Assembly (NCBI RefSeq): GCF_001613805.1
Contig: NZ_LPVY01000020.1
Coordinates: 1-64,000, forward strand
DNA length: 64,000 nucleotides
Direction of reading: 5' to 3'
Source of the DNA: Thalassospira lucentensis
GTDB lineage: Bacteria > Pseudomonadota > Alphaproteobacteria > Rhodospirillales > Thalassospiraceae
The first letter of the stretch is position 1. The number at the start of each line of letters is the position of its first letter. Both the position numbers and the translations under genes were made by a program. Of this stretch, positions 44,393-49,558 are shown in pieces. Under the pieces are notes generated by a model. The model had not been told where the DNA came from and did no database searches. It was given only the letters and a program-made list of their open reading frames with translations.

Positions 44393-44762
44393 TCGATTTC
44401 TTTAACACGGCCATCAAATCATCATGCAATGCCAAATGCCCCGGCAGGATCGGGCCATCATCGCCGGTCGGTGAAATACCGGGTTCAATCCTGTTTCGGG
44501 CAAGATCGGGCAACAGATTTTCGGTCAGTTCAACCAGGGTGATCGCGGTCGGGACATAGCCGGTTTGCGCAATCTCGTTCCATGTATCCGCATGGTCATG
44601 GCTTGCGAAAAACGGGCAATATCGGGTGCCATCATTGCCGGGGCACAACAGCCAGCCCTTGTCATAAAGCCCCCAAACACCTTCCCACGCGATCACGCTT
44701 TCAATGAAGTAACGATAACGGGCGTCGCAGGCATTGATGTTGTCTGATCCGGCAATGCTCAT
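44382..44762 (-). CDS. DUF2750 domain protein
   Basis: 126 aa. RYRYFIESVIAWEGVWGLYD KGWLLCPGNDGTRYCPFFAS HDHADTW and a later YVPTAITLVELTENLLPDL match DUF2750, of unknown function. Its start overlaps the stop of the Memo-AMMECR1 gene by four bases, so both are translated from one mRNA. Confidence 0.78.
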   Translation of the reverse strand: MSIAGSDNINACDARYRYFIESVIAWEGVWGLYDKGWLLCPGNDGTRYCPFFASHDHADTWNEIAQTGYVPTAITLVELTENLLPDLARNRIEPGISPTGDDGPILPGHLALHDDLMAVLKKSITG

Positions 44763-46246
44763 GGCATCGGGGTCGATTGCTGCCAGAAATTCCTGGGCGC
44801 GATGTCCTTGCCCGATATGCCGCGCGTGACAAACCGTTGGGCGCGCATGCGATCCGACCAGTGATCCGTCGAAAGCCCGGCCTTGCGTTTCAACTGCGCC
44901 ACGAAATCCGCCGGATCGGGCAATTGCTCCCAGACTTGTGGCAGGAACAAGCCACGATGATTGCCATCCGACAGGATGATGCCATCTTCATGGGGTGTCA
45001 GTTTCGCGATCAGATCGGCCTCGTTTTCAAACGGAAAATCACGCGGCGGGGAGAGGACCGAAATCGATAATTCCAGATCGTCATTCAATTCATCCTGGCG
45101 AAGGGCTGGAAAGCGCGGGTCGCCAAACCCGGCCTTGAAGGCATTTTCACACAGATCCGTCGCCAGATCGCGATGCGCCATCACCGATCCGATGCAGCCG
45201 CGAAGCTGGCCTGATTTCTTCAATGTGACAAAACACGCGCCCGGTTGCAGAAGTTCGGGCGATACCGATGCCGGATCAATGCGAAGCGGCCCGCCATGCT
45301 TGATCCCGTGCCAGATCGATTGCCGCGCAAGGTCGATCATCGTCGCCCCGTGATCGGCCAGAAGCTTTTCGGTCGCACCGATGAAACCGCCGGATGATTT
45401 GTTCGTCTTTTCATCCTCGCGCATATCCGCTGACCCCGCATAAACAGCCCACGCGCCATAGCCGACCACGCGCGATTTATCGCCCGTGATATCGCCGGAA
45501 TTACACATGCCAAGTGTCCTGATCCGCATGCCGCGATTGCGCGCCGATATCAGCATTCCGGCAACCGGCAACGCGCCGCACGCATCCCCGCTTGTGATGC
45601 TTTCGGCGTCAAACCGCTCGATCATCATGCGCGTTTGATCATCCATGCGCTTTGCGGTGTCGTAGTCATGAAAATGCGACAGGTCCGATGAAATCACGAT
45701 CAGGGTTTCCGGTCCGCCCCAAAGGGCCTCGATTACCTCATGCACCTGCCGTGCGGCGCACCGGCTGACCAGTAACGGCACAATGCCGATATCGGCATCT
45801 TCGCCAAACAATCGCTGGATAAACGGCAATTCGATCTCAAGCCCGTGCTCTTGCGTGTGCGCCTCGTCCAGAACCTGTACCTGCGGCCATGCAAGGGCGG
45901 CCTGCAACCCGGCCAGATCACAGCGCACATCGCCAAGCGGTGTGGCAAACCCGTCCGCCTTGGCAATCGCAATCCCCTGAAACGCCATGCGATGCGCCGG
46001 ACCAATGATCACGATCCGTTTGACCGTGCCCTTTAACGCCCGAACCGTGGCAAAGCCCAAACCGGCAATCGCGCCCGAAAACATCGAACCGGCATGGGGC
46101 ACGATAATCGCCTTGGGGATTGGCGTATCATTCTCTGTCTGGCTCTCGACCGCCGCATGGATCAACCCGTCAATCTCGCTGCGCAACATATCGGGTGCTG
46201 CGGGATAAAACGTTCCGGCAATGGCGGGAGGACGGATAATCTTCAT
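44759..46246 (-). CDS. Fused Memo-AMMECR1 protein of the AmmeMemoRadiSam system
   Basis: 495 aa, a fusion of two components. Residues about 1-265 are a Memo-like domain (AmmeMemoRadiSam B): RPPAIAGTFYPAAPDMLR, IIVPHAGSMFSGAIAGLGFA, VIIGPAHRMAFQGIAI, EHGLEIELPFIQRLFG and ISSDLSHFHDYDTAKRMDD, with metal-type His residues. Residues about 300-490 are AMMECR1 (component A): GACFVTLKKSGQLRGCIGSV, DPRFPALRQDEL and LELSISVLSPP. The partner radical SAM enzyme is at 48455, on the other strand beyond an ATPase gene. Confidence 0.9.
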   Translation of the reverse strand: MKIIRPPAIAGTFYPAAPDMLRSEIDGLIHAAVESQTENDTPIPKAIIVPHAGSMFSGAIAGLGFATVRALKGTVKRIVIIGPAHRMAFQGIAIAKADGFATPLGDVRCDLAGLQAALAWPQVQVLDEAHTQEHGLEIELPFIQRLFGEDADIGIVPLLVSRCAARQVHEVIEALWGGPETLIVISSDLSHFHDYDTAKRMDDQTRMMIERFDAESITSGDACGALPVAGMLISARNRGMRIRTLGMCNSGDITGDKSRVVGYGAWAVYAGSADMREDEKTNKSSGGFIGATEKLLADHGATMIDLARQSIWHGIKHGGPLRIDPASVSPELLQPGACFVTLKKSGQLRGCIGSVMAHRDLATDLCENAFKAGFGDPRFPALRQDELNDDLELSISVLSPPRDFPFENEADLIAKLTPHEDGIILSDGNHRGLFLPQVWEQLPDPADFVAQLKRKAGLSTDHWSDRMRAQRFVTRGISGKDIAPRNFWQQSTPMP

Positions 46247-46571
46247 GATGCTTCCGATGCTGAGCTTTCTTTGAAAAACATAGCGATCACGACTGGGTTT
46301 TCAAAGAGGAAGCTAGGTCTTGGAGAAGCTGATGGCTGTTGTGCAAATTCATACGAGATTATGCCTGTACTATTTAGATGGCCTTATAATTCTTATGCTT
46401 TTTCAAACTTAGTTCTTGAGAAAATGGATAGTGCCAGACAGAAAGTCGCTTAGTCTAGATGATATTAAAGGTGGAATTTCTGTATATGATATTTATCTCA
46501 TGGTAATCATGAGGGGCACAGGTCATGCAAGGCCAAACTTTTATTACTGAGTTAGATCGGATGAGATCCTT
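46247..46571. other. AT-rich intergenic region before the DUF4435 ATPase gene
   Basis: 325 bases without a recognisable gene. The first part should carry the Memo-AMMECR1 promoter on the minus strand. From about 46300 the base composition turns AT-rich, as in the following ATPase gene, which suggests the edge of a transferred segment. A palindrome lies at 46497-46513 in a TATATGATATTTATC-type stretch that may be the ATPase promoter. No direct repeat marking an insertion was found by eye. Confidence 0.5.
46497..46513. promoter_or_regulatory. Candidate operator upstream of the DUF4435 ATPase
   Basis: CTCATG-GTAAT-CATGAG is a perfect 6-bp inverted repeat 58 bases upstream of the start codon, next to an AT-rich possible -10 region. 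A regulatory role is a guess from position. Confidence 0.3.
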
Positions 46572-48434
46572 ATGCGCATATCTTCAATCAAAGTTGAGAA
46601 TCAACCACCTATAAATTTGTTTGAGGTCGATAATCTGTCTGACCTCGTTGTGGTCGCGGGACCGAATGGCGTAGGAAAGACCCGACTTATAACCTCTCTG
46701 CTGGCTGCGTTTCGTGGTTCCTCGACTGGTATCAAAATGACAATTGAAGCAACGTCGAAGGAAGAGGAGAAAACCTTGGGTGGAAAGTCGATCTCAACTC
46801 CTGAAGGGCAGCAGAGACTAATATCCTTACTTAAAGCAAACAAGTTTCGGCGAAACTACAAAAGTGGAGTTTTATATTTCGAGAGCGGGAGATCTATTAA
46901 AAATGTAAATGCATTGTCATTTGCTTTTGAATTTGATGATCCTTACGATGAAATAGTTTCTTGGGATTTTCCTATGCAAGGATTGGCTGGTCGATGGCAA
47001 GATACACAGCATGCTATATTTAAGAAGATACAAAGCCAAAAAACTTCAATCGCAAACCGTGCTATCGAATTAAGAAGTCAGGGGCGCGATTCGATGAATT
47101 TACAATTCTCAGATCCGCTTGACCCATTTAAAGATGCATTTTCTAAGCTTTTAGGGCCGAAGAAATTAACTCGCGCGGATCTCAGTGCGCAAAAGTTGAT
47201 GTACGAAGAAAATGGTGAAGAGCGCCCAATCTCAACACTCAGTAGTGGTGAGCAAGAAGTTCTCAACGTTACCTTCGATTTTCTGCTGCGTAACCCTAAT
47301 GATTGTATAATATTCTTTGATGAGCCGGAAGTGCACCTTCATCCAGAGCTTCTGATAAGAATGGTTTCTACGCTTCGTACAATCGGCCGCAACAATCAGT
47401 TTTTCTTAATCTCTCATTCGCCAGATCTAGTGAGCAGTTCACTAGAGGATAGTGTTGTGTTTCTTACACCCCGGAAGGCAGATGGCTCTAACCAAGCTAT
47501 TTTAGTAAAACCGGATGATGATACCTCACAAGCGATGCATCAACTTGGTCACTCAGTTGGGGTGCTATCTCTTGGCCGAAAAATCGTGGTGGTAGAGGGG
47601 GCGAGCGCGAGCCTCGATAAGCGTACATACTCACAAATACTAGAAAATAGATATCCAGATCTGGTTTTGGTGCCGGGTGGGGGGCGACGTGTTGTCGAGA
47701 ATTTTGGGCATCTAGTTACAACTGTCTTGGATAAAGCGGTTTGGGGAGTGGAGTTCTTCATGTTGACAGACCGAGATTCTGGACCTGTTAACTCTGACAC
47801 CCAAAAGATAGCCCAATTGCCGCGTTACCATTTGGAAAATTACTTCCTCGATAGCGATTTATTGGCCGAGTGTTTTGAGAATATTGAAGATCACGGATCT
47901 TGGCTACGAGATGCAAAAGAAATTGAAAGGGTATTGTCGGAAATTGCTGTCTCGAATGTCGGTTATGCTGTTGCACTGAAGGTTGCGCACACCTTCCGTC
48001 AATTGTGTGGTAACGTAAGTATCATGCCGAGTGGTGCACACAAACTGGACCGAGAGAGCCTAATTCGGGCGATGGCGGGAAAGGCTGAGGAAGAAAAAGC
48101 TCGCACAGCCCGCTCATTGGAGTTGCAATTTGTTCGTGACGAAGTCGCGAAGACATTTGACGAATTTTTGGCTTCGATTTCTGATGGCACTGGGGATTGG
48201 AAGGTAAACATTCCAGGTAAGTTGATACTGAACACCTTTTGTGGTCGGGCCAATATTCAGATTGGGAGGCTGAAGAACCTTTATCTCAAGTCTGCACAAG
48301 CGCAAGGATTAGATGTATTTGCGGATGTCATAGAGATATTCGATAAGTTTTCAAGCTTTGCTGCGATTCCTTCGGTTGAGGGCGGGGACGTGGTAAGTAC
48401 GTCCGAGGAAGTCGATCTAAGTCCGGCCGGATAG
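46572..48434 (+). CDS. ABC-type ATPase fused to a DUF4435/TOPRIM-like domain; probable phage defence protein
   Basis: 620 aa. The N-terminal SMC/OLD-like ATPase has Walker A GPNGVGKT at residues 30-37, signature LSSGEQEVLN at about 222-231, Walker B CIIFFDEPEVHLHPE at about 246-260 and the switch His in LISHSPDLV at about 279-287. A DUF4435/TOPRIM-like domain follows: IVVVEGASASLDKRTY (about 337-352), VPGGGRRVV, FFMLTDRDSG and LPRYHLENYFLD. The ATPase plus DUF4435 pairing is known from OLD-like nucleases and PARIS (AriA plus AriB), here in one chain. Codon use is much more AT-rich than in all neighbours, suggesting horizontal transfer. Defence is inferred. Confidence 0.75.
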   Translation: MRISSIKVENQPPINLFEVDNLSDLVVVAGPNGVGKTRLITSLLAAFRGSSTGIKMTIEATSKEEEKTLGGKSISTPEGQQRLISLLKANKFRRNYKSGVLYFESGRSIKNVNALSFAFEFDDPYDEIVSWDFPMQGLAGRWQDTQHAIFKKIQSQKTSIANRAIELRSQGRDSMNLQFSDPLDPFKDAFSKLLGPKKLTRADLSAQKLMYEENGEERPISTLSSGEQEVLNVTFDFLLRNPNDCIIFFDEPEVHLHPELLIRMVSTLRTIGRNNQFFLISHSPDLVSSSLEDSVVFLTPRKADGSNQAILVKPDDDTSQAMHQLGHSVGVLSLGRKIVVVEGASASLDKRTYSQILENRYPDLVLVPGGGRRVVENFGHLVTTVLDKAVWGVEFFMLTDRDSGPVNSDTQKIAQLPRYHLENYFLDSDLLAECFENIEDHGSWLRDAKEIERVLSEIAVSNVGYAVALKVAHTFRQLCGNVSIMPSGAHKLDRESLIRAMAGKAEEEKARTARSLELQFVRDEVAKTFDEFLASISDGTGDWKVNIPGKLILNTFCGRANIQIGRLKNLYLKSAQAQGLDVFADVIEIFDKFSSFAAIPSVEGGDVVSTSEEVDLSPAG

Positions 48435-48454
48435 AAGGTGCGGGCAGTGTTTTT

Positions 48455-49558
48455 ATGAAGAGGCATTCTACTTTTGCTCGTCACTGGCACCATCTCGATG
48501 ATGGCCGCATCCAGTGCGATGTCTGCCCGCGCTTTTGCAAGCTGAAGGACGGGCAGCGGGGGCTGTGCTTTGTCCGGGCGCGCGAGGATGATCAGGTGGT
48601 TTTGACCACATGGGGCCGGTCATCGGGCTTTTGCATTGATCCGATCGAAAAAAAGCCTCTTAACCATTTCCTGCCCGGGACCCCGATCCTGTCCTTTGGT
48701 ACGGCGGGCTGTAACCTGACCTGCAAGTTCTGCCAGAATTACGAGATTTCCAAGGCGCGCGAAATGGACAGGCTGGGATCGCTTGCGACGCCTGAAATGA
48801 TTGCCAGAACGGCAAAGCAATATGGCTGTTCGGCAGTTGCGTTTACCTATAACGATCCGGTGATTTTTCTGGAATATGCGGTGGATGTGGCGCAGGCCTG
48901 CCGGGAGGCGGGCATTCGCACCGTCGCCGTCACGGCGGGTTATATCGGCGATAAAGCCCGCGAGGAATTCTTCCGCCATATGGATGCGGCCAATGTGGAC
49001 CTTAAGGGCTTTACCGAGGACTTCTATCACAAGCTTTGTTCCGCCCATCTGGCCGATGTTCTTGAAACGCTGAAATACCTTAAACATGAAACCGGGGTGT
49101 GGTTTGAACTGACCAATCTGGTGATCCCTGGCGAGAATGACAGTGACGTGGAATTTGATGAAATGACGTCATGGGTACATGATGAACTTGGCCCCGATGT
49201 GCCGATGCATTTCACCGCCTTTCATCCCGACTGGAAAATGATGGATCATCCGCGCACCCCGCCCGCGACCCTGATCCGGGCGCGCGAGATCGCGATGAAA
49301 AACGGCATTCGGTATGCGTATGTCGGCAATGTCCATGACAAGGCCGGATCAAGCACCTTTTGTCATAACTGCGGTCACATCCTGATCGGGCGGGACTGGT
49401 ATCAGTTATCGGACTGGAACCTTGATGCAAACGGGGCCTGTACTCAATGTGGTACCCATTGCGCAGGTGTGTTCCAGCCACGCCCCGGCACATGGGGGCC
49501 AAAGCGCCAGCCGGTGCGTCTGGTCGCGCCAACTGCGGGTTCGGCATCATCATCCTGA
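48455..49558 (+). CDS. AmmeMemoRadiSam system radical SAM enzyme
   Basis: 367 aa. The N-terminus has CDVCPRFCKLKDGQRGLCFV R, a Cys-rich lead typical of the family. The radical SAM cluster motif CNLTCKFC is at about residues 87-94, in GTAGCNLTCKFCQNYEIS. A C-terminal Cys-rich segment FCHNCGHILIGRDWY with CTQCGTHCAG could bind another metal. The reaction of the AmmeMemoRadiSam system is not known to me. Only 20 bases separate it from the AT-rich ATPase gene, so it may now be read from that transcript. No good ribosome binding site is visible before the ATG. Confidence 0.9.
   Translation: MKRHSTFARHWHHLDDGRIQCDVCPRFCKLKDGQRGLCFVRAREDDQVVLTTWGRSSGFCIDPIEKKPLNHFLPGTPILSFGTAGCNLTCKFCQNYEISKAREMDRLGSLATPEMIARTAKQYGCSAVAFTYNDPVIFLEYAVDVAQACREAGIRTVAVTAGYIGDKAREEFFRHMDAANVDLKGFTEDFYHKLCSAHLADVLETLKYLKHETGVWFELTNLVIPGENDSDVEFDEMTSWVHDELGPDVPMHFTAFHPDWKMMDHPRTPPATLIRAREIAMKNGIRYAYVGNVHDKAGSSTFCHNCGHILIGRDWYQLSDWNLDANGACTQCGTHCAGVFQPRPGTWGPKRQPVRLVAPTAGSASSS

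Follow-up and report, generated by a model that had tools for sequence, protein, structure and literature searches.

A compact, divergent fused AriAB-like gene in a variable Memo-amrS spacer of Thalassospira lucentensis

The window that we analysed, a stretch of 64,000 nt of a Thalassospira lucentensis contig, carries a single long ORF between the divergently oriented genes Memo-AMMECR1 and amrS, both belonging to the AmmeMemoRadiSam set (Table 1). The gene amrS starts 20 bp past the stop codon of this ORF on the same strand, and the two are probably co-transcribed. Compared by eye with the empty spacers of relatives, the left junction of the insert lies just past the old amrS start codon (46331) and the right junction close to codon 10 of amrS in its present form. 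On the Memo side lies an inverted-repeat element, TTTGAAAA...TTTTCAAA, which is probably the native promoter region and possibly a regulator site. Judging from position, our guess would be that the native promoter on the amrS side drives transcription and that amrS is reached by read-through from the inserted gene; a promoter scan returned two sites (shuffled mean 3.7), none of them on the plus strand. Neither tRNA genes nor Rfam matches were found in the 64 kb window.

Table 1. Features of the locus, with positions in the window
Feature	Position	Strand	Basis
Memo-AMMECR1 (AmmeMemoRadiSam B/A), left hotspot border	44759..46246	-	Profile matches
Inverted-repeat element TTTGAAAA...TTTTCAAA, intergenic, Memo side of insert	46270..46306	.	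Also in most relatives' empty spacers
Approximate foreign insert	46334..48484	.	By eye against empty spacers
Fused AriAB-like gene, 620 aa, stop included	46572..48434	+	ORF coordinates exact; PADLOC profiles
N-terminal ABC/OLD-type ATPase domain, ~aa 1-309	46572..47498	+	Pfam AAA_21/AAA_15; VIA-align PtuA, AriA
Walker A GPNGVGKT, aa 30-37	46659..46682	+	G30, N32, G35, K36 invariant, n=15
ABC signature LSSGEQ, aa 223-228	47238..47255	+	S224, G226, E227 invariant, n=15
Walker B and catalytic Glu IIFFDEPE, aa 246-253	47307..47330	+	D250-E253 invariant, n=15
Putative TOPRIM/DUF4435-like domain, ~aa 336-440	47577..47891	+	PADLOC AriAB/AriB with C-terminal part alone
Glu342, aligned with AriB Glu26	47595..47597	+	Alignments
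Asp400-Arg-Asp402, acidic DxD of TOPRIM site	47769..47777	+	D400, D402 invariant, n=15
C-terminal helical region, ~aa 441-595	47892..48356	+	AF2 model, ten-residue blocks pLDDT 76-94 up to residue 590
amrS (AmmeMemoRadiSam radical SAM), right border	48455..49558	+	TIGR04337, 647 bits

The protein scores well above the Pfam cut-offs for AAA_21 (57.2 bits; cut-off 27) and AAA_15 (55.6 bits; cut-off 32.1), and the motif residues of this half are invariant in a 15-member alignment, as is His 282; the description in the earlier note of an OLD/SMC-like ATPase with intact motifs is thereby borne out. The C-terminal half bears VVVEG and TDRD motifs, and the putative TOPRIM residues E342, G343, D400 and D402 are invariant in the same alignment as the ATPase motifs.

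Searches with defence-system profiles placed both halves together. The best match was the PADLOC AriAB profile PDLC02981 (212.2 bits, E 4e-63, aa 159-582), followed amongst PADLOC systems by PtuA (97 bits) and GajA (50 bits), and this match to a fused AriAB profile agrees with the earlier claim that an ATPase and a nuclease-type domain are joined in one chain. Using the C-terminal half alone against 5027 defence models, we obtained AriAB (1.9e-25) and AriB (7.6e-4) only at E≤0.001; the Old, GajA and ATPase-Toprim profiles of PADLOC gave no match to this part at that limit. The score of 212.2 bits exceeds the cut-offs of 80 and 20 bits used by Rousset et al. for their own two fusion profiles (PMC9122126), which may differ from that of PADLOC. 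AriAB was described as a single-gene fusion by the same authors in 2022 (PMC9122126) and PADLOC profiles for it exist, and as such the single-chain architecture is not new. From its sequence we assign the gene to the fused AriAB of the PARIS kind, of which it appears to be a compact and divergent member.

The earlier note had also placed a DUF4435/TOPRIM-like domain in the C-terminal half. The acidic residues and the AriAB and AriB matches speak for this part of the claim, but Pfam DUF4435 itself matched neither the whole chain (E≤1) nor the C-terminal part (E≤10), for which no Pfam match of any kind was found. Rousset et al. called the two-gene form of PARIS using DUF4435 (PF14491) at ≥27 bits (PMC9122126), a score that the protein does not reach, and a DUF4435 search of its own genome found no match. 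Amongst homologues the picture is graded: L082 (599 aa in its open frame) reaches 606 bits with AriAB and shows DUF4435 in the corresponding region, where both it and L043 fall just under the Pfam cut-off (25.5 and 24.6 bits versus 27); L049, L050, L057 and L077 exceed it, and L047 has no match. Of six aligned sequences, four matched DUF4435 at E≤0.01, the Thalassospira protein not being one of them. When profiles were compared with each other on a small scale, the match to DUF4435 members was weak (E 0.039, probability 1.3%). Furthermore, a C-terminal profile of 11 sequences aligned with solved AriB at E 0.1 and 0.25, values that are not significant alone and are preceded by an unrelated chain at 0.028; in this alignment Glu342 falls on AriB Glu26 and ENYF on ENYF (E 0.1). 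The probable relation to DUF4435/TOPRIM is therefore built on the PADLOC AriAB and AriB profiles, the DUF4435-matching homologues and the register match to solved AriB.

An AF2 model built on 15 sequences reached a pLDDT of 73.8 and a pTM of 0.61, against a pLDDT of only 34.5 for a single-sequence prediction. By our reading of its secondary structure, from which the domain borders are taken, the ATPase extends to approximately residue 309; an alpha/beta stretch then runs to ~440, and the part from there up to residue 595 is helical. Using VIA-align, whose rows cover mainly aa 1-333, we found the ATPase half to resemble PtuA (Z 20.0) and AriA (8v45_C; Z 16.8, rmsd 3.1 over 245 residues, 21% identity). 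The best whole-model Foldseek matches were the retron Eco8 effector (E 2e-14) and GajA, not AriA or AriB, although in the solved PARIS structures AriB forms a chain of its own; the first seven rows had TM-scores of 0.32-0.41 and rmsd values of 16-21. No AriB chain was among the Foldseek or VIA-align matches listed.

The nearest relative found (L212, 611 aa) shares 44% identity over 605 aligned columns and lies on a viral contig, ~2 kb upstream of a gene with recombinase and recombinase zinc-ribbon domains. Ten plasmid records were listed for this relative, and in three of them the protein under the match is annotated as DUF4435. One Paraburkholderia sabiae plasmid (L218 880-5155) carries a two-gene AAA ATPase and DUF4435 pair and, immediately after it, another DUF4435 protein of 573 aa, the latter matching L212 from aa 218 to 500. 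A protein search with the AriAB-like protein alone gave no match in genome contigs, viral contigs or phages, and a plasmid search returned seven records, all with less than 80% query coverage. At class level a match was present in 1/385 genomes, and in an alignment search at phylum level in 1/398, in both cases the genome of origin itself; as up to three candidates were scored per genome, relatives can have been missed in these searches. At E≤1e-10, PDLC02981 matched 70 of the 398 phylum genomes (two candidates scored per genome), a loose limit at which 5/14 control genomes matched likewise; the genome of origin (1.3e-51) and one other (G427, 8.5e-109) stood out, the next value being 1.2e-21. 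Four further AriAB proteins that were aligned (L043, L163, L169 and L176) are longer, their extra residues lying mainly in the N-terminal half.

The AriAB-like gene has a GC content of 44.9% and a GC3 of 41.8%, compared with GC3 values of 66.9% for Memo, 63.6% for AmrS, 63.6% for QOR and 69.0% for GNAT2; the AT-rich codon use remarked on previously thus holds (0.42 versus 0.64-0.69). Absence from the equivalent locus in relatives, which had been proposed as a check, was likewise found, with the gene missing from 28/28 other Thalassospira genomes and present only in its own (1/29; up to 27 candidates scored per genome). A genus search with the protein itself gave matches at E≤0.001 in 10/29 genomes, the nine others being partial ATPase matches of 18-26 bits. 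The same-species genome G007 has a different gene in the Memo-amrS slot. Twenty-two loci had an AmrS identity of 80-96%, 21 of them from Thalassospira and one from a Rhodospirillales MAG. Because its GC3 deviates and it is absent from the 28 other Thalassospira genomes, we consider the gene foreign. Most likely it is a single-gene cassette that was recently gained through horizontal transfer and lodged in the spacer from which Memo/AMMECR1 and amrS diverge.

AmrS is present in 29/29 Thalassospira genomes, and we measured the Memo-amrS spacer in 27 other genomes, in G004 separately and at the AriAB locus (46247-48454). The spacer was empty in 13 genomes (99-165 bp), held a gene-less insert in one and contained one long AT-rich ORF in the remaining 15 (GC 0.35-0.45, 168-620 aa). 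By blastp at E≤1e-3 these ORFs fall into nine families: an AbiJ-like family of three, a family of four, a family of two and six singles, AriAB included. The AbiJ-like cassette matches AbiJ_NTD4 (34.9 bits; cut-off 34), DUF7014 and PADLOC PDC-S32 (4e-9). For the other seven families, none of Pfam, PADLOC and NCBIfam gave a convincing match (ten representatives in the first two, nine in the third). The earlier statement that the gene stands alone is accurate for its direct neighbours, which are Memo/AMMECR1 and AmrS, but roughly half of the genus has some other single foreign gene in the same slot. Additionally, an own-genome N6_Mtase search gave two weak matches (24.3 and 23.3 bits; cut-off 20.4) and no strong type I restriction methylase.

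Several details of individual spacers were recorded. The gene-less insert (L033 1119-1507), a stretch of 388 bp in the spacer upstream of amrS, has terminal inverted repeats and appears MITE-like by eye. Two cassettes, L020 724-1440 and L035 784-1458, are distant relatives (27% identity, E 6e-11), and both show hydrophobic C-terminal stretches by eye. In G004 (L073 5601-5699, 6959-8011) a degenerate second copy of the amrS 5' end, identical at 80/90 bases and containing a stop codon, lies left of the insert. By eye, some inserts lie between Memo and the promoter element and others between this element and amrS, and in some cases the whole spacer is replaced. Integrase- or tRNA-linked insertion was considered and rejected, as no tRNA is present in the window and the junctions differ between genomes; the route may be recombination in the core genes on either side, with breakpoints that vary.

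As a control we compared neighbouring spacers. With reference L088, Memo-amrS exceeded its minimum by >300 bp in 11/22 loci, compared with 0/10, 0/10, 1/15, 4/14 and 1/18 for the next five gene pairs. With reference L085 the amrS-GNAT2 spacer was variable too (14/22), partly owing to a gene that some genomes have at this place, and with L097 variation was also seen in one more pair, which is on the Memo side but not adjacent (16/20). Thus, the Memo-amrS slot is strongly variable, but not unique. Outside Thalassospira, 42/58 amrS loci had a Memo match, with gaps of ≤329 bp in 38/42 and of 480-2193 bp in 4/42. Two Rhodospirillaceae MAGs from outside the genus (L132 and L133) have enlarged spacers of 1306 and 2193 bp. 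A limited literature search found no description of this hotspot, though one may exist.

Split PARIS consists of an AriA hexamer with three AriB bound to it, which a trigger such as Ocr sets free (PMC11455837); freed AriB is reported to dimerize and cut tRNA (PMC11455837; PMC12409363), and cleavage is described as absent for AriB E26A (PMC12409363). This hold-and-release cannot transfer unchanged to a fused chain, and a review leaves open whether fused AriAB activates its nuclease without release (PMC10568477). The sequence shows the ATPase and TOPRIM motifs, AriAB profile membership, a foreign composition, the lack of the gene in relatives and the hotspot; the following course is our inference. 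The ATPase halves would oligomerize and keep the TOPRIM domains inactive until a phage protein altered the ATPase assembly, a part played for the PARIS of E. coli by anti-restriction proteins such as Ocr. In a fused chain, activation would have to consist of undocking and pairing of still-tethered domains, not of free AriB release; the paired domains would cut RNA, probably tRNA, by two-metal chemistry via Glu342, Asp400 and Asp402, and the infected cell would then stop growing. A fused chain has one effector for each ATPase, and tethered pairing would be the simplest scheme for it; the most likely function would be abortive defence against phage through cleavage of tRNA. Overall, we consider it likely that the gene encodes a recently gained AriAB fusion of compact size and divergent sequence, with PARIS-type action by a tethered nuclease.

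Other explanations account for parts of the evidence. Class 1 OLD proteins also have ATPase and TOPRIM in one chain, and the gene might specify a stand-alone, DNA-cutting enzyme of that type, PARIS-like in sequence and not guarding anti-restriction proteins. Its domain order, its single-gene setting and the OLD-type character of the best whole-model Foldseek matches agree with such an action, yet the C-terminal part matches AriAB and AriB only at E≤0.001, and AriAB outscores GajA by 212 to 50 bits; we regard it as rather unlikely. Alternatively, the gene could be defence cargo that no longer works, is kept by chance or serves competition between mobile elements and not phage defence, as might be suggested by its occurrence in 1/29 genomes and by the contig of the only close relative found, which is viral or otherwise mobile; the frame is, however, open and the ATPase and TOPRIM motifs are all intact, and this appears improbable to us.

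A functional tie to the flanking AmmeMemoRadiSam genes would fit the proximity and probable co-transcription with amrS. The slot is nevertheless empty in 13/29 genomes, holds a gene-less insert in one and unrelated genes in 14, and on the empty sites we rejected such a link as hardly credible.

The 620-residue, single-gene AriAB is a handy test case: can a PARIS sensor activate a nuclease that stays tethered to it, or does the fusion behave as a class 1 OLD enzyme? The hotspot is the newly reported part of this work and provides a shortlist of foreign single genes, most of no known family, at one defined chromosomal site of marine bacteria, with many of the genes coming from cultured strains. 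For discovery it matters more than AriAB itself. More speculatively, Memo-amrS might be a one-gene defence slot without a visible integrase, whose seven unnamed families would include new anti-phage proteins, with the compact AriAB activating without nuclease release; this we consider possible, if somewhat doubtful.

Amongst known systems, class 1 OLD, GajA and the retron Eco8 effector share the order of ABC ATPase then TOPRIM, with a Foldseek match to the Eco8 effector (E 2e-14), but differ in that the C-terminal sequence here matches AriAB/AriB only (E≤0.001) and in that no helicase or reverse transcriptase is a direct neighbour. The two-gene PARIS of E. coli has in common the ATPase fold (Z 16.8 to 8v45_C), the placement of E342 on AriB E26 and the ENYF stretch (at the solved-AriB E of 0.1), whereas the Thalassospira protein is fused, has an ATPase half of ~310 aa in comparison with the 464 aa AriA chain and lacks a separate effector for release. 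The nearest counterpart is fused AriAB, the single-gene PARIS of PDLC02981: the Thalassospira protein is shorter (620 versus 685-697 aa) and its C-terminal half lies under Pfam DUF4435 detection, but both join an AAA_15/AAA_21-type ATPase to a putative DUF4435/TOPRIM half in one chain.
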